IMG/VR virus record: IMGVR_UViG_3300037847_004625
Location: 6,598 to 35,722 of that record
DNA: 29,125 bases
Origin: a virus
Strand: one strand, 5' to 3'
A program made the translations under genes and the position numbers. The notes below the pieces were generated by a model that was given only the letters and a program-made list of their open reading frames with translations, made no database searches and was not told the origin of the DNA. Each line of letters starts with the position of its first letter. Position 1 is the first letter of the stretch. Below, piece after piece: positions 3,107 through 29,125 of the stretch.

Positions 3107-3830
3107 ATGGCAAAAGTTCATCTGGGATTTAGATCTACCAAATAATTTTGGCCAAGGAAAGAAGTTCAAAGCTCGTGGTGGTAAGTTCTTCAAAGAAGGT
3201 AGATCAGAGTATGCAAGTTCTGTTGAATGTCTTAACTCTCTAAGACACGATGAGCATGATGGATATCCTCCAGACTCATATGGATATGATTTCAATCAAA
3301 TAGCTACATGGATAAAGTCTGGTACTTTATCAGCAGATATAGGTAAGCCTTTAGCTGAAAAGAGTCAGTGGTTAGATGACAATCTTGGAGCCTACTTGGG
3401 GTATAGGTTCTGTGCATTGAAAATGTATTATCCTCCACAAGGATATATCTCGTGGCATACTAACTGGAATGTACCAAGTTACAATATCTTATTTACTTAC
3501 AATCCTACTGGTGATGGTTTCTGGAGACACATCAATCCTACTGGTTCAAAATCACATAAACCTAATATAGGAGAGAATGAAGAGAACGTAGTAACTATTC
3601 CTGACAAGCCAGGATGGTCATGTAAGGTTGGATACTATGGACGTAAAGAAGAACATGATAAGATTGTTTGGCATACAGCGTATACCAATGAACCAAGAAT
3701 TACATTAGGTTATGTTATATACGAAGAAAGTATTTGGAAGAATACTGTTGAAGAGATTGCTGGTAAAGAGTTAGTATGGCCTCTAGCTCCATACGAACCA
3801 GAGACTGTACAAACATCATTTACTAAATAA
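3057..3830 (+). CDS. 2OG-Fe(II)-oxygenase-like jelly-roll protein with HxN site
   Basis: A 257-residue protein resembling phage 2-oxoglutarate/iron oxygenases. Residues 124-150 (MYYPPQGYISWHTNWN, then SYNILFTYNP) match the strand carrying the first iron ligands. Residues 204-222 (VWHTAYTNEPRITLGYVIY) match the strand with the distal histidine (H206) and the 2OG-binding arginine (R214). The first motif reads H134-T-N136 instead of the usual HxD, so the carboxylate ligand seems to be missing, as in two-histidine asparaginyl/aspartyl hydroxylases or in an inactive or halogenase-like variant. The start is ATG 3057, with AAGGA about 9 nt upstream, inside the end of the glycosyltransferase gene. 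It converges with the next gene, overlapping its end by 8 nt. The substrate is unknown; the adjacent fibre gene is an attractive but unproven target. Confidence 0.6.
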   Translation: MTPIYQIQSEILTYLDEWQKFIWDLDLPNNFGQGKKFKARGGKFFKEGRSEYASSVECLNSLRHDEHDGYPPDSYGYDFNQIATWIKSGTLSADIGKPLAEKSQWLDDNLGAYLGYRFCALKMYYPPQGYISWHTNWNVPSYNILFTYNPTGDGFWRHINPTGSKSHKPNIGENEENVVTIPDKPGWSCKVGYYGRKEEHDKIVWHTAYTNEPRITLGYVIYEESIWKNTVEEIAGKELVWPLAPYEPETVQTSFTK

Positions 3831-4212
3831 ACCTTGATCCAAACTTATGATACTCTTTATGTGACTTTTTACACACATTGACAAGTACATAGTATAATAT
3901 TTTTTCATGTTGAGTCTTTACAGATTCATGAAGGTCGATGCCAGGTACTCTATAGTTTGTCATTGTATACAATAAGTACCATACATCTTTGACACCTTTG
4001 AATACAATGTTATCTAATCCATTGTACTCTATAGCCTTCTTGTATCCTTCCCATTGGTTCTGTACATTCATTGCATCATGTAGTTCTTTAACTATAGGTT
4101 GAATCTTTTTCCATTCACTATCTTGTTCTGCAACAAACATTTGGTTGAATAACTGCTGACTATATAACAACATAACAAAGCCATAGATCTGGCTATCGAC
4201 CATCATTCTCAT
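3823..4212 (-). CDS. Unknown 129-residue protein
   Basis: Not recognised. The protein looks all-helical, with a hydrophobic first 25 residues (IYGFVMLLYSQQLF), a charged centre (SEWKKIQPIVKELHDAMN) and a lysine/histidine-rich C-terminus. Three closely spaced ATGs (MRMM) make the exact start uncertain by a few codons; AAAGG lies about 11 nt upstream of the first. It is the last gene of the minus-strand island, 15 nt after the phosphate-permease-like gene, so it is probably co-transcribed with it. Its 3' end overlaps the 3' end of the plus-strand oxygenase-like gene by 8 nt, and no terminator hairpin is visible between the converging operons. Confidence 0.6.
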   Translation of the reverse strand: MRMMVDSQIYGFVMLLYSQQLFNQMFVAEQDSEWKKIQPIVKELHDAMNVQNQWEGYKKAIEYNGLDNIVFKGVKDVWYLLYTMTNYRVPGIDLHESVKTQHEKILYYVLVNVCKKSHKEYHKFGSRFI

Positions 4213-4227
4213 TTTATGTAAACCTTT

Positions 4228-5187
4228 CTAAAGTCCGTTTGGTACAATTATATAGTGTATTGCCAGAACAACACCAACCGATGCACCAAGACCAATCATC
4301 ATCTTAAAGAAGTCTTTTCCTACAAGAGGAAACACCACTTTAAATTTTTCTTTGCCAGTCATAGTAGCCATGGCAAGTTCTCGACCACAAAGAAGTCCTA
4401 CAAACACCCAAGTTGTTGACATTGGAATATCATTGAGTTCCTTAAAGAAGAATAAGATTACCCAATAAACACCATCAATAATGGTTGCACTTCGTACATA
4501 ACGTGTATTGTGTTTCTCGAGGACAATGTTCTGGATCTTACCTCCACCTTCTCTAAACATCCACCATAGACCACCAACAAATACCACACTGATACACACC
4601 ATAAGGTCTACTGGAATTTCTCTAGGAAGGAACACAGCAATGTTTGCCATGTCATGAGATAACCAAGTCCACCAAAGAAAACCTGTTGTAAACCATTGAC
4701 CTACTCGCCAATATATTTTATGTTCTTCTTTTACAGGTTTTGCTTCATCTAAAATTTTAGTTACACCGATCCAGATAACATAAGCTGCAACAGCTGCAAC
4801 AGCATATCCCATCATGGATTTCATCAACATTTTCTCTAACACAAAAGTTGAAGCAAATGCAGATAGTACTAAAAATGAAGTTGATACTGGTACACCTATT
4901 CGAGTAAGCAATAGAAGTAGACCAGGGGCCATAGCATGATACCATTGTATCTCTTGAAACGGTATCTTATTAAGTCGGCCATACGATATATCTCCACCGT
5001 ACATATACCAACCATACCATAGTGCCCATAATAAAACAGATGATGCAGATAACCACATCACCTTCCAATTTACTCTATCGTTATTAGATGCAATCCATGT
5101 ACCTAGGGTTTGCACAGAATCGTTTGCAATTACAGAATATGCAGCAAATAAAAAACCCACTGCCATCCATAGAGTTACTAGTTCCAT
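4228..5187 (-). CDS. PiT-type inorganic phosphate permease
   Basis: A 319-residue polytopic membrane protein of the inorganic phosphate transporter (PiT) family, which moves phosphate across the cytoplasmic membrane with a cation. Both halves of the family's inverted repeat are visible. Half one has ANDSVQTLGT at residues 21-30 (canonical GANDxxNxxGT) and GVPVSTS at 98-104. Half two has SHDMANIAVFLP at 177-188 and DIPMSTTW at 253-260 (canonical PxSTTH). Many hydrophobic segments surround these, with one hydrophilic loop around residues 147-158. The second repeat has H178 where Asn is usual. At 319 residues it is compact but within the range of short prokaryotic PiT proteins. A clear GGAG sits 8 nt before ATG 5187. 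The 86 nt before it are AT-rich with a TATAAT-like box on the minus strand but no matching -35. Another anion such as sulfate cannot be excluded as substrate. Confidence 0.8.
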   Translation of the reverse strand: MELVTLWMAVGFLFAAYSVIANDSVQTLGTWIASNNDRVNWKVMWLSASSVLLWALWYGWYMYGGDISYGRLNKIPFQEIQWYHAMAPGLLLLLTRIGVPVSTSFLVLSAFASTFVLEKMLMKSMMGYAVAAVAAYVIWIGVTKILDEAKPVKEEHKIYWRVGQWFTTGFLWWTWLSHDMANIAVFLPREIPVDLMVCISVVFVGGLWWMFREGGGKIQNIVLEKHNTRYVRSATIIDGVYWVILFFFKELNDIPMSTTWVFVGLLCGRELAMATMTGKEKFKVVFPLVGKDFFKMMIGLGASVGVVLAIHYIIVPNGL

Positions 5188-5273
5188 AGTAATTTCTCCA
5201 AAATGGTTTCAAGTCACTTGTATTTAATTGACAAATTCATAAGTTATATTATCATTATATTAAAGTTTCATTA

Positions 5274-5915
5274 TTATTTGGGTTCGTCTCTGTTTACCTT
5301 TCCTATAACCATTATACGTTTAGCTCCTAAGAACTCTCTTGACTCACCATAATATATTTTTCTTAGATGTGCTTGTCTTGAAAGTTCATTAGCTCCATCT
5401 GCACAGTTGATGTGCAACCATTTTACATTTTTATTATTATTACTTTGTAGTACATACAATTTATCTGGGAACTGGTTAGTTATGTACTTCATATCCATCA
5501 TATGTTCACAAGAACAATTGATGACAACATTACCTTTAAGATCTAGTCTATCAAACACTACATCTTTGTTGTGAACTTTGACTTGAGGTAAATCATCTTT
5601 GTATATGTGCTCTGCAATATCACAAGTATACTCATCAACATCATAAAGATTGATAGGAATATCATAGCCCAAACGATTAACAAGCATTGGAACAATAACA
5701 ATACCATACCAACTAGCCAGTATGTCGATGCCTCTAATTTTTCTATCACGATATCTTTCATCTACTAATGTCTCAACCAGCCACCATTTACTTTGTATCT
5801 GAGTCTCAAATACACATTCACTAAAATCTTTAAATTTATATATGTGCTTGTCAGCTACGTATCCCATACCTTTGTGGAAAAGCTGATGTGTTTTTTCTAT
5901 TGAATAATGATGCAT
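5274..5915 (-). CDS. Probable SAM-dependent methyltransferase
   Basis: A 213-residue protein with the layout of a class I Rossmann methyltransferase. GIDILASWYG (residues 62-71) is at the position of the SAM-binding first strand and loop. The acidic YDVDEY (91-96) is where the ribose-binding acid sits, and VVINCSCEHM (130-139) matches the strand-4 catalytic region. The C-terminal KRIMVIGKV resembles the last strands of the fold. The glycine-rich loop is poorer in Gly than usual, so the assignment is by overall pattern and not by exact motif. The start ATG 5915 overlaps the stop of the upstream glycosyltransferase by one base. Its position in the glycosyltransferase run suggests methylation of a sugar or of a surface molecule; no acceptor can be read from the sequence. 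Confidence 0.5.
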   Translation of the reverse strand: MHHYSIEKTHQLFHKGMGYVADKHIYKFKDFSECVFETQIQSKWWLVETLVDERYRDRKIRGIDILASWYGIVIVPMLVNRLGYDIPINLYDVDEYTCDIAEHIYKDDLPQVKVHNKDVVFDRLDLKGNVVINCSCEHMMDMKYITNQFPDKLYVLQSNNNKNVKWLHINCADGANELSRQAHLRKIYYGESREFLGAKRIMVIGKVNRDEPK

Positions 5916-6559
5916 TAGTCACCCCAAAACTTCTTCAATGTATCATACTTATCTTCTACGTCATCAAAACATGCAACAACATGATCATCTCTCTTTGTGT
6001 ATTCTGTGATATCTTCTGGAAAGTGTGAGCCATATTTGTATGAGTAAGCTAATTTTTTTGGAAAAAATTTTAAGCTGTCTCTATGTCTTCTGTACATCCA
6101 ACTATCTAATCCATAAAAGGACTTGAATATCTTATCTTTGTTGTCTTGAAAGTCTTTGTATTGTTGTTCAAAATTGTTACCTTGAATATGCATGACAGAA
6201 GAGTTTACATCACAATGAAAGATATATTTGTTTATCTCATCACTGAACCATGTAGTCTTTAGTATTTGTCCTAAGCCAATAAACTTTGATAACTTACCAT
6301 GTACAAAACAATCAAGGTCAAGATATATTGTATCATTCTCAAACAAACCTGGTTCAAATAAATTAACTTTATTCCACCATAGTCTATCTTGACAAAATGA
6401 ATTGTATATCTTTGTTTCTATATTACGATCAAAGCCTCTAGGATTATCAGTCCAACATATAAAGTTGTTTACCTGATCTTTGACTTGATGAAATAATTGG
6501 TTTACAAACTCATGTCTGTAACCAACTCCTACTTTCATGCATACTACATCTAACTTCAT
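5915..6559 (-). CDS. Glycosyltransferase-like protein, paralogue 1 (DLD motif)
   Basis: A 214-residue probable nucleotide-sugar transferase. It opens with a strand (KLDVVCMKVG), then FICWTDNPRGFD, then the metal-binding motif YLDLDCF with D81 and D83. The C-terminal half has the block LDSWMYRRHRDSLKFFP, then YSYKYGSHFP. The same blocks, in the same order and spacing, recur in the next two upstream genes, so the three are paralogues. I start it at ATG 6559, which overlaps the upstream stop as ATGA and favours translational coupling, rather than at the GTG five codons earlier (6574). It is the shortest of the three. Donor and acceptor sugars are unknown. Confidence 0.65.
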   Translation of the reverse strand: MKLDVVCMKVGVGYRHEFVNQLFHQVKDQVNNFICWTDNPRGFDRNIETKIYNSFCQDRLWWNKVNLFEPGLFENDTIYLDLDCFVHGKLSKFIGLGQILKTTWFSDEINKYIFHCDVNSSVMHIQGNNFEQQYKDFQDNKDKIFKSFYGLDSWMYRRHRDSLKFFPKKLAYSYKYGSHFPEDITEYTKRDDHVVACFDDVEDKYDTLKKFWGD

Positions 6560-7317
6560 AGATATTGTTTCCACTCTTTAGCAACCCATCCTGTCTTTAT
6601 ATCTAATGGGTCTGGCTCATGATCTTCCATAAACACACAGACTGCATGATCTGGTCTGTACTTATATTTAGCTGCGTCACCTCTCACTGTATAGTTGTCT
6701 GGATATGCAGCACCTCTGTTGAAAGAATATACAGATCCTTTTGGATATGTATTGATCTTACTTCTCCATTTTCTCCACAAGTATGCATCTGCACTGTAAA
6801 GTGATTGCTTGATTCTTCTATAGTTCTTACTGAAGTGGGTCCATATTTCATTTGTCACAGGTTGAGTATTATCAACATAAATTAAACTTGCATTAAACAA
6901 CATTGTAAGAAAATAGTTTTGTCCATGCATACCTACATGCCAAGGAGGCATCCAGTCACAATCTATCATTGCTGGAGTTGGCGTATCGATAATTCTATCC
7001 ATAGGACCAAGAAATAAATTATCGAGATCAGAGAATAGTATCTTACCTTCTATACCACATAGCTTTGGAGCAAACAATGACATCTTGATACCATCCCAGA
7101 AATACCACTGATCATTATCTACAATGTCTTGCCATAGCCATTGCTCTGTACATTCAACAGGCTTTATTTCATCATCTAAGCCTTCTGGATTTTCAGTCAT
7201 ACAATATGACTTAAACTCTTGCTTGATATGTTTCTTAGCCATTCTGTGGATTAAGTTTGGATACTCAGGACCAAACTTATCACCCCACTTCATAGTCATC
7301 AAGTTAATAATATTCAA
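6556..7317 (-). CDS. Glycosyltransferase-like protein, paralogue 2 (DLD motif)
   Basis: A 253-residue member of the same paralogous set: N-terminal strand (INLMTMKWGDKFG), YCMTENPEGLDDEI (residues 38-51), the metal motif FSDLDN with D97 and D99, and the late block ADAYLWRKWRSKINTYP, then YSFNRGAAYP. The start is uncertain. TTG 7317 gives the best alignment with the paralogues, but an AGGAG lies only 2 nt before it, and the next in-frame ATG (7299) would remove the first strand. An ATT two codons later, with ideal spacing to the AGGAG, is also possible. It overlaps the upstream transferase by 14 nt. It is probably part of a glycan-building or glycan-decorating pathway with its neighbours. Confidence 0.65.
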   Translation of the reverse strand: MNIINLMTMKWGDKFGPEYPNLIHRMAKKHIKQEFKSYCMTENPEGLDDEIKPVECTEQWLWQDIVDNDQWYFWDGIKMSLFAPKLCGIEGKILFSDLDNLFLGPMDRIIDTPTPAMIDCDWMPPWHVGMHGQNYFLTMLFNASLIYVDNTQPVTNEIWTHFSKNYRRIKQSLYSADAYLWRKWRSKINTYPKGSVYSFNRGAAYPDNYTVRGDAAKYKYRPDHAVCVFMEDHEPDPLDIKTGWVAKEWKQYL

Positions 7318-8152
7318 TACTCCTGATTACATGCTGACGTTCTGTCTTGATAACTTGTTCTTTCTCTTGTCTAACAACATGAAGAGCTGGATTATCTTTA
7401 CTGTCCTCAGCATTAAGATCTACATACTTCTTGCCTTGACCATTGAGTAATCTAAACATAAAACCTTCTCTTCGTAAGAAAGGTGTCTTGTCTTTTGGAA
7501 AGAACTCTGATCCTTGTTCTGCTCCAAAGAAGTATGAGTATGCCCAACCTCTTGGTAGACAGTTTATAATATCTCTGTGATAATGATTAATGTATTCATC
7601 ATTACCTCTAAACTTGAATGCAAACACTTCTGGATCATCCATAAATTGTTTTGCAACATAGTCTAAAGAATTACCATGCCACATCATAATGGATGAGTTA
7701 ACTAATGCTGCAAACTCAAAGTCAGGATCAAAACCAGATACTTTGAATGCTTGTGATTCCCAGTCAATTGGTTTCCAATAACAATATAGCATTGTTAGTT
7801 TGTCCTTGACTGCATAGTCGCACATTGCATCAAAGTCTCTTTGTATCACTGTATCAAGATCAAAGTATATGTTGAGTCCATCACCAGAAATAGATTCATC
7901 AAACAACATCATTTTATTCCACCAACCCCACAGGTTGTAATCATTAACATCAATTATATTGATGCCAGGCATAGCTATTGTTGTTTGATTTGTAAGTAAG
8001 TTAAAATTGTATGGCTTAGAAAAGTTTGCATCTATCTGATTCTTCAGTTGATAGACATGCTCATCTGTATAATATTCTCTTGGATCAAACTCCATTTGGT
8101 ATGGAGATTCAGTATGAACAGTCTTGATGCAATAAATGTTAATACGAGTCAT
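7304..8152 (-). CDS. Glycosyltransferase-like protein, paralogue 3 (DLD motif)
   Basis: The largest of the three paralogues at 282 residues. After an N-terminal strand (MTRINIYCIKT) there is a roughly 25-residue insertion relative to the others, then WWNKMMLFDESI and the metal motif IYFDLDTV with D98 and D100. The downstream block NDEYINHYHRDIINCLP, then YSYFFGAEQG, aligns with the same region of paralogues 1 and 2. The start ATG 8152 lies 14 nt inside the end of the upstream unknown gene. The order large, medium, short along the operon fits serial duplication with trimming, although separate acquisition from a shared marine phage pool is equally possible. Confidence 0.65.
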   Translation of the reverse strand: MTRINIYCIKTVHTESPYQMEFDPREYYTDEHVYQLKNQIDANFSKPYNFNLLTNQTTIAMPGINIIDVNDYNLWGWWNKMMLFDESISGDGLNIYFDLDTVIQRDFDAMCDYAVKDKLTMLYCYWKPIDWESQAFKVSGFDPDFEFAALVNSSIMMWHGNSLDYVAKQFMDDPEVFAFKFRGNDEYINHYHRDIINCLPRGWAYSYFFGAEQGSEFFPKDKTPFLRREGFMFRLLNGQGKKYVDLNAEDSKDNPALHVVRQEKEQVIKTERQHVIRSIEYY

Positions 8153-8549
8153 CTATCCACCGCCTTGTAATAGTCAAATATTCATCCACCTTTGTTTCTT
8201 TCTCTCTGTTTTGATGTATGAGAGCAAGAGGTAGCCAATCTTTACATGCTACCCAATCATGTATTGTATGATGATCACTTATAGTAGAGAATGACAACCA
8301 ATAATTCAAACCATGGTTCTTGAATTGTTTGAAGCTCTTCTCTACTGTAAATGCTCTAATAACATTATCAAATTCAAATGGCAATCTACCAGAAGCATGA
8401 AATTGATCTGGGTTCAAATATGCTTGGTATGTATCATTGTATGTTGTCACTAAGTAATACTTATACTTCTTATTATTGTATAATAATCTAATTGGATTAA
8501 GCTCATCATCTATAGGTTTTTCAAAAAACTTTGGTACCAAATTGGCCAT
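8139..8549 (-). CDS. Unknown 136-residue protein between radical SAM and glycosyltransferase genes
   Basis: Not recognised. The protein is soluble and mixed in character: a basic/aromatic segment NNKKYKYYLVTTYNDTYQAYL around residues 25-45 (quoted in part: KYKYYLVTTY), a histidine cluster SDHHTIHDW around residues 90-98, and a charged C-terminus. No cysteine pair, leader-peptide signature or membrane segment is seen. The start ATG 8549 overlaps the last base of the radical SAM stop codon, so the two are likely translated together. It could be an accessory protein of the radical SAM enzyme or a glycan-pathway protein; nothing decides between these. Confidence 0.6.
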   Translation of the reverse strand: MANLVPKFFEKPIDDELNPIRLLYNNKKYKYYLVTTYNDTYQAYLNPDQFHASGRLPFEFDNVIRAFTVEKSFKQFKNHGLNYWLSFSTISDHHTIHDWVACKDWLPLALIHQNREKETKVDEYLTITRRWIDDSY

Positions 8550-9478
8550 TAGTAGCCACCTTCATTTGCTACAATGTGGGCGGGAAGCGGAGCGACTCTA
8601 AATCCTTCCGTAATTCTTCCTCTGCGAGTTTGCTCCATGAATGGGTAAAGCCTAGTGTCCATATGACTATCCCAATCCGCAATTTTAATCCACAGACCGC
8701 TTCTGTGTAGCGCTTTTCCAACTGAATCCGGGTTAAGGGGGAACATAAATGTATCCGGTTCAACATGTTGGCCATAAATTGGTTTCTCCTTCCATGAGTT
8801 GATATAGTCTACTGATAGACCATAATGTTCTGCACACATCTGAATCATGTCATCCATGCTCCAGTTGTCTACACTCTCTAATAAATACCTTCCATGTTGG
8901 CCAACGTTTTTGAAGCGTATCATAGCATGGTCAATATTCTTTTGTTTAAACAAATGCAACAATCTACTTGGTGCATCATCATTGATACCTTTACATAATA
9001 TAGTTCCTGTGTCAACAATAAACTTACAGTCTCTTATATTTTCAAGAGCCATAACCTTTTGTTTGGCACATCTCAATTCATCAATAGCCTCATACCAGTC
9101 ATCATTATCAACACCGTTCAATGACAAATAAACGTGCGATAACTTAGCCTCTCTGAGACTACGAGTATACCTTATACTAGCCAATTTCAGTCCATTAGTC
9201 AACAGGGTACAACGATGCCCTGCCTTTCTGATCCTGACTATTATGTCGGTAAGATCATTCCTCATGGTAGGTTCAGCTCCCATGATTCTGATCATAGTTC
9301 TTTTTGGGAATCTATTGATCGTATTTATCAATTTATCAATGTCCATGTCAGGAATATCTCTATTAGGAATATAACAATTTTGACATGTCATATTACACTG
9401 ATGAGTTACATCTGCAGTGACATCTGTAAAGTGATTATCTTCCGGATCTAGTTCATAGTATCCTGGTAAGTTTGTCAT
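8549..9478 (-). CDS. Radical SAM enzyme
   Basis: A 309-residue radical S-adenosylmethionine protein. The iron-sulfur ligand motif CxxxCxxC is at C28, C32 and C35 (CNMTCQNCY). MGAEPT at residues 66-71 is a variant of the SAM-binding GGEPT motif, and TLLTNGLKL follows at the expected strand. The C-terminal part has no cluster of cysteines, so an auxiliary-cluster SPASM domain seems absent. I start it at ATG 9478, preceded by GAGGA with 6 nt spacing, rather than at the TTG 9499 seven codons upstream. It overlaps the end of the oxygenase gene by 26 nt. The reaction is unknown. The stretch encoding the C-terminus (about 8581-8760) is markedly richer in G+C than its surroundings. Confidence 0.85.
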   Translation of the reverse strand: MTNLPGYYELDPEDNHFTDVTADVTHQCNMTCQNCYIPNRDIPDMDIDKLINTINRFPKRTMIRIMGAEPTMRNDLTDIIVRIRKAGHRCTLLTNGLKLASIRYTRSLREAKLSHVYLSLNGVDNDDWYEAIDELRCAKQKVMALENIRDCKFIVDTGTILCKGINDDAPSRLLHLFKQKNIDHAMIRFKNVGQHGRYLLESVDNWSMDDMIQMCAEHYGLSVDYINSWKEKPIYGQHVEPDTFMFPLNPDSVGKALHRSGLWIKIADWDSHMDTRLYPFMEQTRRGRITEGFRVAPLPAHIVANEGGY

Positions 9479-10034
9479 ACGCTTCCTCAGTGTATTCAAA
9501 ATTAGCTAGTATTGCAATCCTTACCATATCAGACTTATGGTAAGAAGCGTGAGGATAACTTGGGTTAACAAAATAAACTTCACCAACGTCAATGTCTATT
9601 GTCTCCACTTTACCTTTTTGTACATCATTCCAACTCTTTGCAACTTTAAGTGTTATAGGATCTGATATAGGACATAACAAGTTATATGTGTTTGGAGGAT
9701 CCATATGATATTCTAAATGGTGTCCAGGATCCATCATTGCAAATCTATGATTACTTGACTCAAATCCTGAGTGTATTGATATCTCTTCAGTATGAATTTG
9801 ATTATAAAATTCACCTAGTTCGTATACTTGTTCTCCTGTACTAACACCAGCAACTGCATGCTCATGTCTATGCTCTGCAGTCTTTTCACCAGACAAATTC
9901 ATAGGATCATCCGCTAAAGAATGGTATATAAATAAATTATGTGTAATGAGTTCTGGTGTCAATGAGCCAAGTTTTATGGCAGAAGGTAGCTTTCTATTCC
10001 TGCCATGTAGTCTCAATTCATCTTTTTTACTCAT
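9453..10034 (-). CDS. 2OG-Fe(II) oxygenase / aspartyl-asparaginyl hydroxylase-like protein
   Basis: A 193-residue cupin-type protein with a plausible iron site: HMD at residues 110-112 (H110, D112) and H162 in NPSYPHASYH, with R172 ten residues later as the 2OG-binding arginine. The strand VYFVNPSYPHASYH matches the family's second-ligand region. This contrasts with the HxN protein at 3057, which lacks the acid. It is the first gene of the minus-strand island (ATG 10034) and has a poor ribosome site. Its upstream region is shared with the divergent plus-strand operon and holds a TATAAT-like box on the minus strand. The substrate is unknown; hydroxylation of a protein side chain or a small molecule is possible. 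Confidence 0.65.
   Translation of the reverse strand: MSKKDELRLHGRNRKLPSAIKLGSLTPELITHNLFIYHSLADDPMNLSGEKTAEHRHEHAVAGVSTGEQVYELGEFYNQIHTEEISIHSGFESSNHRFAMMDPGHHLEYHMDPPNTYNLLCPISDPITLKVAKSWNDVQKGKVETIDIDVGEVYFVNPSYPHASYHKSDMVRIAILANFEYTEEAYDKLTRIL
9927..9934 (+). promoter_or_regulatory. Possible late promoter inside antisense gene
   Basis: An exact TATAAATA on the + strand within the minus-strand oxygenase gene, 167 nt before the first gene of the rightward operon. If used, it would transcribe antisense to the oxygenase 5' end. It may be a chance match in AT-rich DNA. Confidence 0.2.
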
Positions 10035-26978: not shown

Positions 26979-27218
26979 ATGATAGTTAAGCAACAAGTAC
27001 TGGTTAACGTCAGATATTGGATGCCCGATTACAATAATCTCCTTCAGGAGTTTTATTGGGGAACTGAAGACATTGTACCAGAGTATCCTAGAGTGCATAG
27101 GTTTTTAAATTTTTGGCATCATAACATAGATGCTGTCATTAGTGAAGTATTGATTGCTAATGAATATAGTAGAGAATATAGGAGCGTAGATTGGCTACTC
27201 CATCGTCCGGAGCACTAA
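26979..27218 (+). CDS. Small conserved-looking protein after gp23
   Basis: A 79-residue protein with aromatic-rich text (VRYWMPDYNNLLQEFYW, then HRFLNFWHHNIDAVISEVLIA). I have a memory of similar short proteins next to gp23 in T4-like cyanophages but no function for them. There is no ribosome site before ATG 26979, which may be the first base of its mRNA. An internal ATG (27021) would lose the RYW motif and also lacks a ribosome site. It overlaps the next gene by 28 nt. Confidence 0.6.
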   Translation: MIVKQQVLVNVRYWMPDYNNLLQEFYWGTEDIVPEYPRVHRFLNFWHHNIDAVISEVLIANEYSREYRSVDWLLHRPEH

Positions 27219-27778
27219 ACGATCAACCAGATAACACTCAGTTTTTATCACCACTGGGTTTCAACTTCTCGATCAAAAAGCTACCAAATACAAACTACTT
27301 TGTCCAATCTTGTAATGTACCTACAGTACAGATGGGTGATGCAGTACTAGCAACCCCTTTTGTTAACATACCAACTATTGGTGACAGAATAGCATATGCC
27401 GAGTTTCAACTTGCTTTTAAGGTTGATGAGGATATGAAAAACTATATTGAATTGTATGATTGGATGTTACAACTTGGCTTTCCAGAAGACTTTGCTCAAT
27501 CAAAAAATATATACGAGAAGCAAAGACAAGTTGACTTTATGGCAGATGGACCGTATAGTGATGCTACACTAACTATATTGAATAGTGCTATGCAACCTAA
27601 TCTTGAAGTACAGTTTGAAGATTGTTATCCAACAGCTTTGTCTGATTTACAATTTTCAACAACGTCTCCTTCTGTAGATTATATTGAATGCCAAGCAACA
27701 TTTAGATATAAGTTGTTTAGAATACTCAGATTGTCATCATCAGGAACAGAGGACACTCAATCTACTAATATTATATAA
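27191..27778 (+). CDS. Tail-tube-fold structural protein (gp19 paralogue, in gp3-like position)
   Basis: A 195-residue protein starting at TTG 27191, with AGGAG 7 nt upstream. Like gp19 it has the sequence IPxxGDR (GDR 64-66), AE (70-71), VDED (78-81) and DWM (90-92). The AE-to-DED and DED-to-WM distances are 9 and 12 residues, identical to gp19, which shows a common tube fold. The opening FLSPLGFNFSIKKLPNTNYFVQSCNVPTV (quoted: LSPLGFNFSIKKLPNTNYF) is typical of a marine phage tail protein family. Candidate roles are tail-tube initiator or terminator; related marine phages have gp3 near this place, but I cannot assign gp3 from sequence alone. No overlap with the next start. Confidence 0.7.
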   Translation: MATPSSGALNDQPDNTQFLSPLGFNFSIKKLPNTNYFVQSCNVPTVQMGDAVLATPFVNIPTIGDRIAYAEFQLAFKVDEDMKNYIELYDWMLQLGFPEDFAQSKNIYEKQRQVDFMADGPYSDATLTILNSAMQPNLEVQFEDCYPTALSDLQFSTTSPSVDYIECQATFRYKLFRILRLSSSGTEDTQSTNII

Positions 27779-27788
27779 TGGAGTTGTA

Positions 27789-28775
27789 ATGAGTTTTATT
27801 GAACCGAAGTGCGTCGAAGGCGCCTTCTCTGAAGACTTACTTGTAGACATAAAAAAGAAATATTGTTCATGGTTCCAATCAGGATGGAAGTCTAATGAAC
27901 GAAATACGTTTGAGTATGGACACGGCCAACATAACATAGTAAAACAACCTAAGTTCTTTGATTGGGATATGATATTGTCTCCAAACATTGAACAAAACCA
28001 TCCTGTTATGTTAGATGCATTTGATGTATTACAAGAAGTAATTGGTAAAAGATCATTGTTCAGATGTTATACAAAAACATATCATTATGGACAAGATGCA
28101 TATCCTCATGTAGATAAACAAGCTAAGAGGACTGGTCCTGCAGAAACAGCTATACTATATCTAACTCAGAACTGGGATCCAAAATACTATGGTATGACAT
28201 TGTTGTATGAAGATAATGAAGTATCTGTTGCAATGCTACCAAAGTACAACAGGTTGTTTATATTTGATAGTGCACAACTACATTCCACATCACCACTTTC
28301 AAGAATAACTCCATTTGAAAAAACTATTATGGTATTCAACACTGCACCAATAGGCTTTGGTGATGAAGGTGTCAAGTATCTGTTTGATAATACAAACAGT
28401 GTAGAGCATACAGGTAGACCATTCTTCAATCATTTGTGGAATGTTTATATGTATTGTGAACAACTTGGTGCTGAGAAACCTGTATGTATGGCTGCACTGT
28501 GGCACAGTGTGTATGGGGATGTGTATAAGAAGCATGATGTCAATATGTTTACTCCTAAGATTGTTGAAAAACATATTGGTAAGGAAGCTGCTGAATTAGT
28601 CAAGGTCTATGGAGAAATGGGTGCAATGCTTTCTCCAAGATATGAAGCTGCTATCAATAGTGGCGACAAAAGATTCATGATGATAGAACTTGCAAATCTT
28701 GTTGACCAGAACTTCAATGGACAGTATAATGAAAGATGTCAGAAGTTAGTGGTAGCAATAGATGAACTTAGATGA
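27789..28775 (+). CDS. 2OG-Fe(II) oxygenase fused to an HD-like (DUF6817-type) domain
   Basis: A 328-residue two-domain protein. Residues 1-190 are a prolyl-4-hydroxylase-like oxygenase: TYHYGQDAYPHVD with H107 and D109 as iron ligands, H165 in FDSAQLHSTSP as the third, then a basic residue in SRITPFEKTIMVFN for 2OG. Residues 200-300 carry HTGRPFFNHLWNVY (H207, H215) and VCMAALWHSVYG (H239), matching the histidine pattern of the HD-like DUF6817 family as I remember it. I start at ATG 27789 with GGAG upstream; the frame is open for 35 codons further, but those lie inside the tail gene. It overlaps uvsY by 14 nt. The substrate is unknown; 2OG oxygenases are common at this locus in marine T4-likes. 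Confidence 0.75.
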   Translation: MSFIEPKCVEGAFSEDLLVDIKKKYCSWFQSGWKSNERNTFEYGHGQHNIVKQPKFFDWDMILSPNIEQNHPVMLDAFDVLQEVIGKRSLFRCYTKTYHYGQDAYPHVDKQAKRTGPAETAILYLTQNWDPKYYGMTLLYEDNEVSVAMLPKYNRLFIFDSAQLHSTSPLSRITPFEKTIMVFNTAPIGFGDEGVKYLFDNTNSVEHTGRPFFNHLWNVYMYCEQLGAEKPVCMAALWHSVYGDVYKKHDVNMFTPKIVEKHIGKEAAELVKVYGEMGAMLSPRYEAAINSGDKRFMMIELANLVDQNFNGQYNERCQKLVVAIDELR

Positions 28776-29125
28776 TTATTACAATGCTTGGGCTGAAGAT
28801 TCAAAGATTGACAGAACTGAGCTAGGTGAGGAGTCTATACGTATACCTCAATTGCATCATAAGTATTATAGGTTTTATAGTGCAGAGAGGATGAAGTTAG
28901 TTAAACTTCAAGAAGAGTATAAGGTTCTGAAAAAAGACAAACACGATTACCTTTCTGGTATCATGGCAGAAGAAGATCTGAATGAACGTGGTTGGGAACC
29001 AAACCCTCTACGTATACTAAAAACAGATATTCCAATGTATATTGAGTCTGATAAAGACATTGTAAACCACAATCTAAAAATTGCATATGCAAAAGAAAAA
29101 GTAGAGTTCTTAGAGTCAATAGTGA
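28762..29125 (+). CDS. uvsY: Recombination mediator UvsY, 3' truncated by window end
   Basis: An open frame from ATG 28762 to the window end (121 codons, no stop). It reads MNLDDYYNAWAEDSKID, then HHKYYRFYSAERMKLVKLQ, a K-rich helical stretch, then LSGIMAEEDLNERG and YIESDKDIVNHNLKIAYAKEKVEFLESIV (quoted: DIVNHNLKIAYAKEKVEFLE). This layout (N-terminal DDxxxxWxxDxxID, the YYSG-type element after a coiled helix, and an S/D-x-D-x-x-x-x-x-x-L helix near the C-terminus) is that of T4-like UvsY, which loads the UvsX recombinase onto gp32-coated single strands. The position after gp23 and a 2OG oxygenase is usual in marine T4-likes. The start overlaps the oxygenase stop by 14 nt; the ribosome site is weak. 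Confidence 0.8.
   Translation, partial: MNLDDYYNAWAEDSKIDRTELGEESIRIPQLHHKYYRFYSAERMKLVKLQEEYKVLKKDKHDYLSGIMAEEDLNERGWEPNPLRILKTDIPMYIESDKDIVNHNLKIAYAKEKVEFLESIV

Follow-up and report, generated by a model that had tools for sequence, protein, structure and literature searches.

Why a phage gene should join a 2OG-Fe(II) oxygenase to a domain of the DUF6817 family, and whether the two halves serve one reaction, is the question raised by a locus in the window, that is, the whole stretch of 29,125 nucleotides analysed here (positions 6,598 to 35,722 of IMG/VR record IMGVR_UViG_3300037847_004625). The fusion gene lies at positions 27789–28775 on the plus strand, and ORF analysis of the window gives a protein of 328 amino acids plus a stop codon, starting at ATG. 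Many 2OG oxygenases are carried by marine T4-like phages, where their use is not established, and a dedicated partner domain is of interest for that reason; 2OG oxygenases occur in 14 of 16 cyanophage genomes according to the accessible part of one report (PMC3037559). A likely ribosome-binding site, GGAG, is found at 27780–27783 (plus strand) ahead of the ATG at 27789, and an alternative TTG start at 27684 was discarded, the ORFs of the related loci L003 and L024 starting at the corresponding ATG. Upstream lies a tail tube protein gene of the gp19 type (27191–27778, plus strand; phrog_45, E = 1.3e-36), and downstream a gene for a UvsY-like recombination mediator (28762–29125, plus strand), which is cut by the window end, overlaps the fusion gene by 14 bases and has counterparts in L003 and L024 that match phrog_231. 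The same slot between tail tube and uvsY is occupied in both loci checked (L003 and L024), with the L024 protein being ∼40% identical to that of the window. The source phage is T4-like and not an obvious cyanophage, because its major capsid protein is closest to that of Stenotrophomonas phage DLP_6, at 69.9%, and that of Pelagibacter phage Mosig, at 65.3%.

The fusion is unlikely to be an assembly artefact, since the full-length protein recurs at 81–100% identity in 8 of 10 IMG/VR loci (the remaining two being cut by contig ends) and a ∼40% identical version is present on four further contigs. Comparison with L003, L005, and L007 gives dN/dS values of 0.08–0.11, with purifying selection equal on both halves, and the distant L021, for which dS approaches saturation, gives values of 0.26–0.28. 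An intact fusion was found in none of 50,697 phage GenBank records at ≥80% coverage, a search that possibly excluded records very near the window, and 13 records matched one half only. A sequence-only reading of this DNA had asked how common the fusion is in marine T4-like phages, and on this count isolated phages of this kind do not seem to carry it commonly.

The N-terminal half (residues 1–190; 27789–28358, plus strand) resembles prolyl-hydroxylase-like 2OG-Fe(II) oxygenases in its Pfam matches, in its match to phrog_274, in a 28-row alignment of this half (A6), and in its likeness to solved P4H and OGFOD1 structures. The Pfam matches together fall within residues 96–180, namely, 2OG-FeII_Oxy_4 (PF13661) at residues 96–173 with 33.4 bits against a cut-off of 27 (E = 6.7e-8) and 2OG-FeII_Oxy_3 (PF13640) with 31.6 bits against a cut-off of 27 (E = 3.4e-7), and the A6 profile matches P4H (6t8m, E = 1.7e-7), OGFOD1 (4nhx, E = 4.8e-7), and also EGLN proteins. 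The complete HxD...H iron site that had been read from the letters is present: H107-V-D109 (28107–28115, plus strand) supplies the first two Fe(II) ligands, with H107 and D109 kept in at least 90% of the A6 rows, and H165 (28281–28283, plus strand), the distal ligand, is invariant in A6. Residue K178 (28320–28322, plus strand) stands where a basic residue is expected, presumably to bind the 2OG carboxylate. Likeness to P4H, OGFOD1/TPA1, and EGLN (PF13640/PF13661; PHROG 274) thus extends over both profile and triad, and the window protein differs from these oxygenases in its lysine at 178, which is arginine in most A6 relatives, and in its fused partner domain. The oxygenase half is best described as a putatively active hydroxylase, acting on amino-acid side chains or on a small molecule. 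A structure prediction for the full-length protein, made from four near-identical sequences, reached a pLDDT of 33.

The window protein matches two PHROG families, phrog_274 over its N-terminal half and phrog_20220. The name of phrog_274, "DNA endonuclease V", is judged to be a mislabel, the family including members with the look of 2OG-Fe(II) oxygenases. Four members were compared with Pfam: L014:4857-5342 scores above the 2OG cut-off, L013:4390-4989 and L013:3804-4394 score below it, and L011:5393-5989 has no Pfam match at E 0.1, so that its assignment comes from phrog_274 and the HxD...H pattern. Judged by the members at L013:3804-4992 and L014:4857-5342, the label, which phage annotations use as well, looks wrong.

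The C-terminal half (residues 192–328; 28362–28772, plus strand) belongs by score to DUF6817 (PF20680; PHROG 20220), with 52.2 bits at residues 202–276 against a gathering cut-off of 25.2 (E = 6.7e-14), and HD_4 stays below its Pfam cut-off (18.2 against 27.2 bits, E = 0.0021). The motifs from which this family had been guessed, HTGRPFFNHL (207–216) and LWHSVYG (237–243), are both present, and the pattern HxxxxxxxHL...HSxYG is common to the window copy and the family; the window copy differs from the consensus in being fused to an oxygenase and in two residues, R256 (proline in the window) and E268 (alanine in the window). An AlphaFold2 model restricted to the C-terminal half (residues 186–328), built from 97 DUF6817 sequences, has a pLDDT of 90.7 and a pTM of 0.87 and shows a predicted HD-type fold, in agreement with the suggestion of an HD-like domain made from the sequence; the outcome named as refuting that suggestion, a predicted structure lacking an HD-like fold, did not occur. 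In a Foldseek search against the PDB, the best match is Mesh1 (3nqw, probability 1.00, E = 6.9e-3), with no match below E 0.001, and in the VIA comparison rows 1–23 are all HD domains of small alarmone hydrolases (SAH) and Rel proteins, led by RelH (7qod_B, Z 13.0, rmsd 3.3, 135 aligned residues), a Z of ∼13 for a helical domain being only moderately safe according to VIA's own note. PhnZ is more distant (4n6w, VIA Z 7.7), as is TmpB (6npa, Foldseek E = 0.35). At the sequence level, a profile match to Lmo0812 (4yf1, E = 1.3e-5) points in the same direction as the structure searches, and the matches to viral models are headed by phage DUF6817 proteins (E = 3.5e-6 and 3.4e-5), with HD-domain proteins next. 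The model therefore places the C-terminal half, as a predicted fold, closest to the small alarmone hydrolases.

The conserved residues that would line the pocket of such a fold form a set different from the ligands of MIOX, PhnZ, and TmpB. In alignments to 4yf1 and Rel, H215 (28431–28433, plus strand) takes the position of the first metal ligand of HD domains, H239-S240 (28503–28508, plus strand) the position of the HD dyad with the aspartate replaced by serine, and N303 (28695–28697, plus strand) the position of the terminal HD-domain aspartate, the last of these being placed by weak alignments to 4yf1 and Rel together with the family counts. Two further positions are characteristic of the family, namely, H207 (28407–28409, plus strand), a near-universal extra histidine of DUF6817, and Y242 (28512–28514, plus strand). 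In an alignment of 97 DUF6817 rows (A5), H207, H215, H239, and Y242 are present in every row, residue 240 is serine in 93, asparagine in 3, alanine in 1, and never aspartate, and residue 303 is asparagine in 63 and aspartate in 34. The A5 rows come from loci gathered by motif patterns and then filtered by a motif expression allowing S, N, or A after H239, which dropped 1 of 153 (L111, which lacks H215 and has the dyad HS); L091, which is cut, was left out. As a check on bias from the motif patterns, 22 members retrieved with the Pfam HMM and without any motif pattern (8 of them repeating known loci or near-copies, and with L192, the 23rd, left out as below the family cut-off) were inspected; the residue after H239 is serine in 14, alanine in 8, and never aspartate, H215 is always present, and H207 is absent in 3. 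The histidine-richest columns between H239 and N303 are residue 300 (30 of 97; glutamate in the window) and residue 248 (17 of 97; lysine in the window), and the two histidines that the window has in this interval, H249 and H262, are not features of the family. The C-terminal half therefore agrees with the HD superfamily in its predicted helical fold and departs from it in the His-Asp dyad. On these alignments, the classical HD metal site is remodelled in DUF6817, with three histidines, a tyrosine, and an Asn/Asp position conserved.

The partnership of DUF6817 with 2OG oxygenases is the strongest new result, and it is this pairing, rather than the di-iron idea, that merits follow-up. Clustering at 80% identity leaves 30 non-redundant viral clusters of DUF6817, of which seven are fused to a 2OG oxygenase, and both domain orders occur: 2OG-DUF6817 in the clusters of L016 (the window clade), L021, and L030, and DUF6817-2OG in those of L026, L041, L067, and L081. 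At the level of loci, the first order is found in the window clade, L021–L024, and L030, and the second in L026, L041/L043, L067/L075–L077, L081/L083, and L089/L090. On a tree of 96 DUF6817 domains, each fusion order must have been gained or lost at least twice in total. In 18 of the 23 unfused viral clusters, a 2OG gene is the immediate same-strand neighbour, against 6.2 expected from the other genes of the same loci, a value of 18 being reached in none of 20,000 simulations, and most of these neighbours abut or overlap. In the phages S-RIM50 and ACG-2014g, DUF6817 and 2OG are encoded separately, and the two genes overlap by 4 bases. The clusters without an immediate 2OG partner are L038, L052, L056, L074, and L080, with L074 having one two genes off. 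None of the neighbours of DUF6817 in P-TIM68 is annotated as a 2OG enzyme, and Pfam gives no 2OG match for the gene immediately preceding it. The viral relatives are the best 80 of 99, of which 73 entered the ORF table, the other 7 being window-clade copies.

Neighbouring phage genes were also tallied by PHROG and Pfam (94 of 167 scanned, among the 25 commonest of 77 and of 41 families listed), giving six 2OG oxygenases, five clamp or clamp-loader genes, and three tryptophan halogenases (PF04820-like), and no one common pathway was seen among the 94. Several 2OG oxygenase genes stand in a row around DUF6817 in the viral contigs L030, L041, L063, L072, and L088.

A similar association is found in bacteria, where 11 of 64 standalone DUF6817 clusters have an adjacent 2OG gene against 3.6 expected, a value reached in none of 20,000 simulations. 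The partners belong to different 2OG families: P4H-like genes adjoin DUF6817 in L101–L104, L107, and L109, and TauD-type genes in L108, L131, L138, L166, L172, L174, L178, and L199, with Pfam confirming TauD for L131, L166, L172, and L178. Because four DUF6817 neighbours supplied the TauD profile, its further matches are not independent, whereas the Pfam results are. In L099, a single metagenome-assembled contig, DUF6817 and JmjC_2 share one ORF. Bacterial 2OG neighbours were located by six-frame search, a TauD match 1.5 kb away in L146 not being counted as adjacent, and the bacterial relatives are the best 80 of 113. Since 53 of the 64 standalone clusters have no adjacent 2OG gene with the profiles used (30 of the 53 being from Planctomycetota or Acidobacteriota, going by their record titles), DUF6817 also lives without a linked oxygenase. 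The family is sporadic in bacteria: in four phyla, PF20680 exceeds its cut-off in 6 of 398, 5 of 296, 2 of 296, and 5 of 292 genomes, the genome on which each search was centred being counted too. NRPS genes directly precede the TauD/DUF6817 pair in L166 and L178 and flank it in L108, these pairs coming from Microbispora, Micromonospora (L178), and Rhizobacter. Pfam was applied to 75 of 129 bacterial neighbour genes, and genes of the HbpS-like haem-degrading protein family account for 4 of the 75. In L125:4986-6476, a 497-amino-acid ORF combines DUF6817 with a weak, sub-threshold match to M14 carboxypeptidase. Neither DUF6817 nor PF20680 was found by name, and no title on their pairing with 2OG enzymes, in a literature search whose coverage leaves most subscription journals outside; the accessible parts of two papers mention 2OG enzymes in gene clusters and do not mention DUF6817 (PMC7824862; PMC2922099).

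Because the two parts recur as fusions and as neighbours in phages and in some bacteria, the oxygenase and DUF6817 very probably work together on a reaction. The leading account of how they do so, to which a probability of about 0.42 is assigned, is that of a hydroxylase with a dedicated partner domain, which probably handles the hydroxylated product in its remodelled HD pocket. The gene product would then be a two-part protein- or metabolite-modifying enzyme, in which the oxygenase half would hydroxylate its substrate and DUF6817, as a dedicated second module, would act on or with that same substrate, for example as a hydratase/lyase or a hydrolase on the hydroxylated product. The logic would be that of PhnY-PhnZ, where a hydroxylase is followed by an HD-fold partner, without the same di-iron chemistry. 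A catalytic or ligand-handling pocket is more likely than a mere linker, because members lacking an adjacent 2OG gene still conserve the residues. HD-fold enzymes offer a partial parallel in the cyanamide hydratase Ddi2, in which the terminal ligand aspartate is replaced, such a loss being able to accompany a different chemistry (accessible part of PMC8177086); Ddi2 keeps the HD dyad, however, and the DUF6817 domain of the window does not. A broader and more tentative proposal is that DUF6817 may be an unrecognised general second-step enzyme for 2OG hydroxylases, with a pocket of three histidines, Asn/Asp, and tyrosine, recruited by P4H-, TauD-, and JmjC-like oxygenases in phages and bacteria. 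If this second-step reading were true, the phage protein would be a one-chain enzyme for two reactions, and the HD fold would be extended to members without the dyad that names it; the DUF6817-2OG pairing also provides a concrete handle, through co-expression with the oxygenase and a search for the product.

Ranked second, after the product-handling pocket, is a regulatory role, in which a degenerate alarmone-hydrolase fold without catalysis would bind a nucleotide-like ligand or a partner protein and so switch or position the oxygenase. This reading is possible though the less favoured: the nearest folds are the nucleotide-binding HD domains of SAH, Rel, and Mesh1, and the losses of the dyad aspartate and, in most members, of the terminal aspartate could mean a dead, regulatory domain. 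RelA is without hydrolysis, for which divergence of its HD domain is the most likely cause (PMC8177086). Against this, three histidines and a tyrosine that are near-invariant across phages and several bacterial phyla seem to exceed a purely allosteric need, and the bacterial members are often found without a linked oxygenase. A canonical alarmone hydrolase was itself rejected on ligand conservation, despite the best fold fit. Relative to Mesh1, RelH, and Lmo0812, the closest solved folds, H215 and H239 are kept at ligand positions, whereas the dyad reads HS and the terminal aspartate is asparagine, so that the mononuclear H...HD...D site of these hydrolases and of RelA-SpoT is not preserved and the site is not that of a canonical metal hydrolase. 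Far less probable is the idea that the sequence-only reading had called imaginable, that of a second mixed-valent di-iron HD oxygenase giving tandem iron oxidations as in PhnY-PhnZ or TmpA-TmpB. A tandem of 2OG hydroxylase and HD-fold partner is a real precedent, these enzymes acting in tandem in phosphonate pathways and not as one chain, and the di-iron members (MIOX, PhnZ, and TmpB) share the six-ligand motif H...HD...H...H...D (accessible part of PMC8177086). The appearance of PhnZ and TmpB among the fold matches, and the two window histidines H249 and H262, which lie after the dyad and before N303, would fit such a site, but the bridging dyad aspartate is absent in every relative examined, the extra histidine pair is unconserved, the terminal aspartate is asparagine in the window and in most of the family, and SAH folds fit better than PhnZ. 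The di-iron site was therefore rejected on ligand conservation. What survives of the analogy is the arrangement, in which a 2OG hydroxylase and an HD-fold partner recurrently go together, by likeness and not by membership, and the di-iron chemistry is left unsupported.

Two further explanations concern the pairing as such. A metal or redox helper, concerned with Fe(II) delivery, protection, or reactivation, or else a dimerisation scaffold for 2OG oxygenases, is improbable; it would suit the links to P4H-like, TauD, and JmjC enzymes, three 2OG families that share a need for Fe(II) and 2OG, as well as the histidine-rich conserved set and the HbpS-like haem-related neighbours, yet the bacterial linkage is patchy and most 2OG oxygenases are not known to depend on one. 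Least probable of all is that adjacent phage genes became fused neutrally or by accident and share no function. Phages often fuse neighbours, the phage 2OG genes here occur in arrays, and a single gain followed by loss could account for one fusion order, but both orders occur with repeated changes of each on the tree, the two genes are adjacent far more often than other genes at these loci, and links to other 2OG families in bacteria and purifying selection on the fusion speak for a shared function.

Elsewhere in the window, a weak Asp/Asn beta-hydroxylase-like gene (PF05118, 23.5 against 22.6 bits; no PHROG match) adjoins a radical SAM gene (PF04055, E = 1.6e-15) at 8552–10034 on the minus strand, followed by seven minus-strand ORFs (3823–8549) with no Pfam match at E 0.001, and these genes together are a possible second modification cluster. 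In addition, a small Usg-like gene (PF06233, E = 2.5e-16) lies at 26979–27218 on the plus strand, with the major capsid gene on one side and the tail tube gene on the other.
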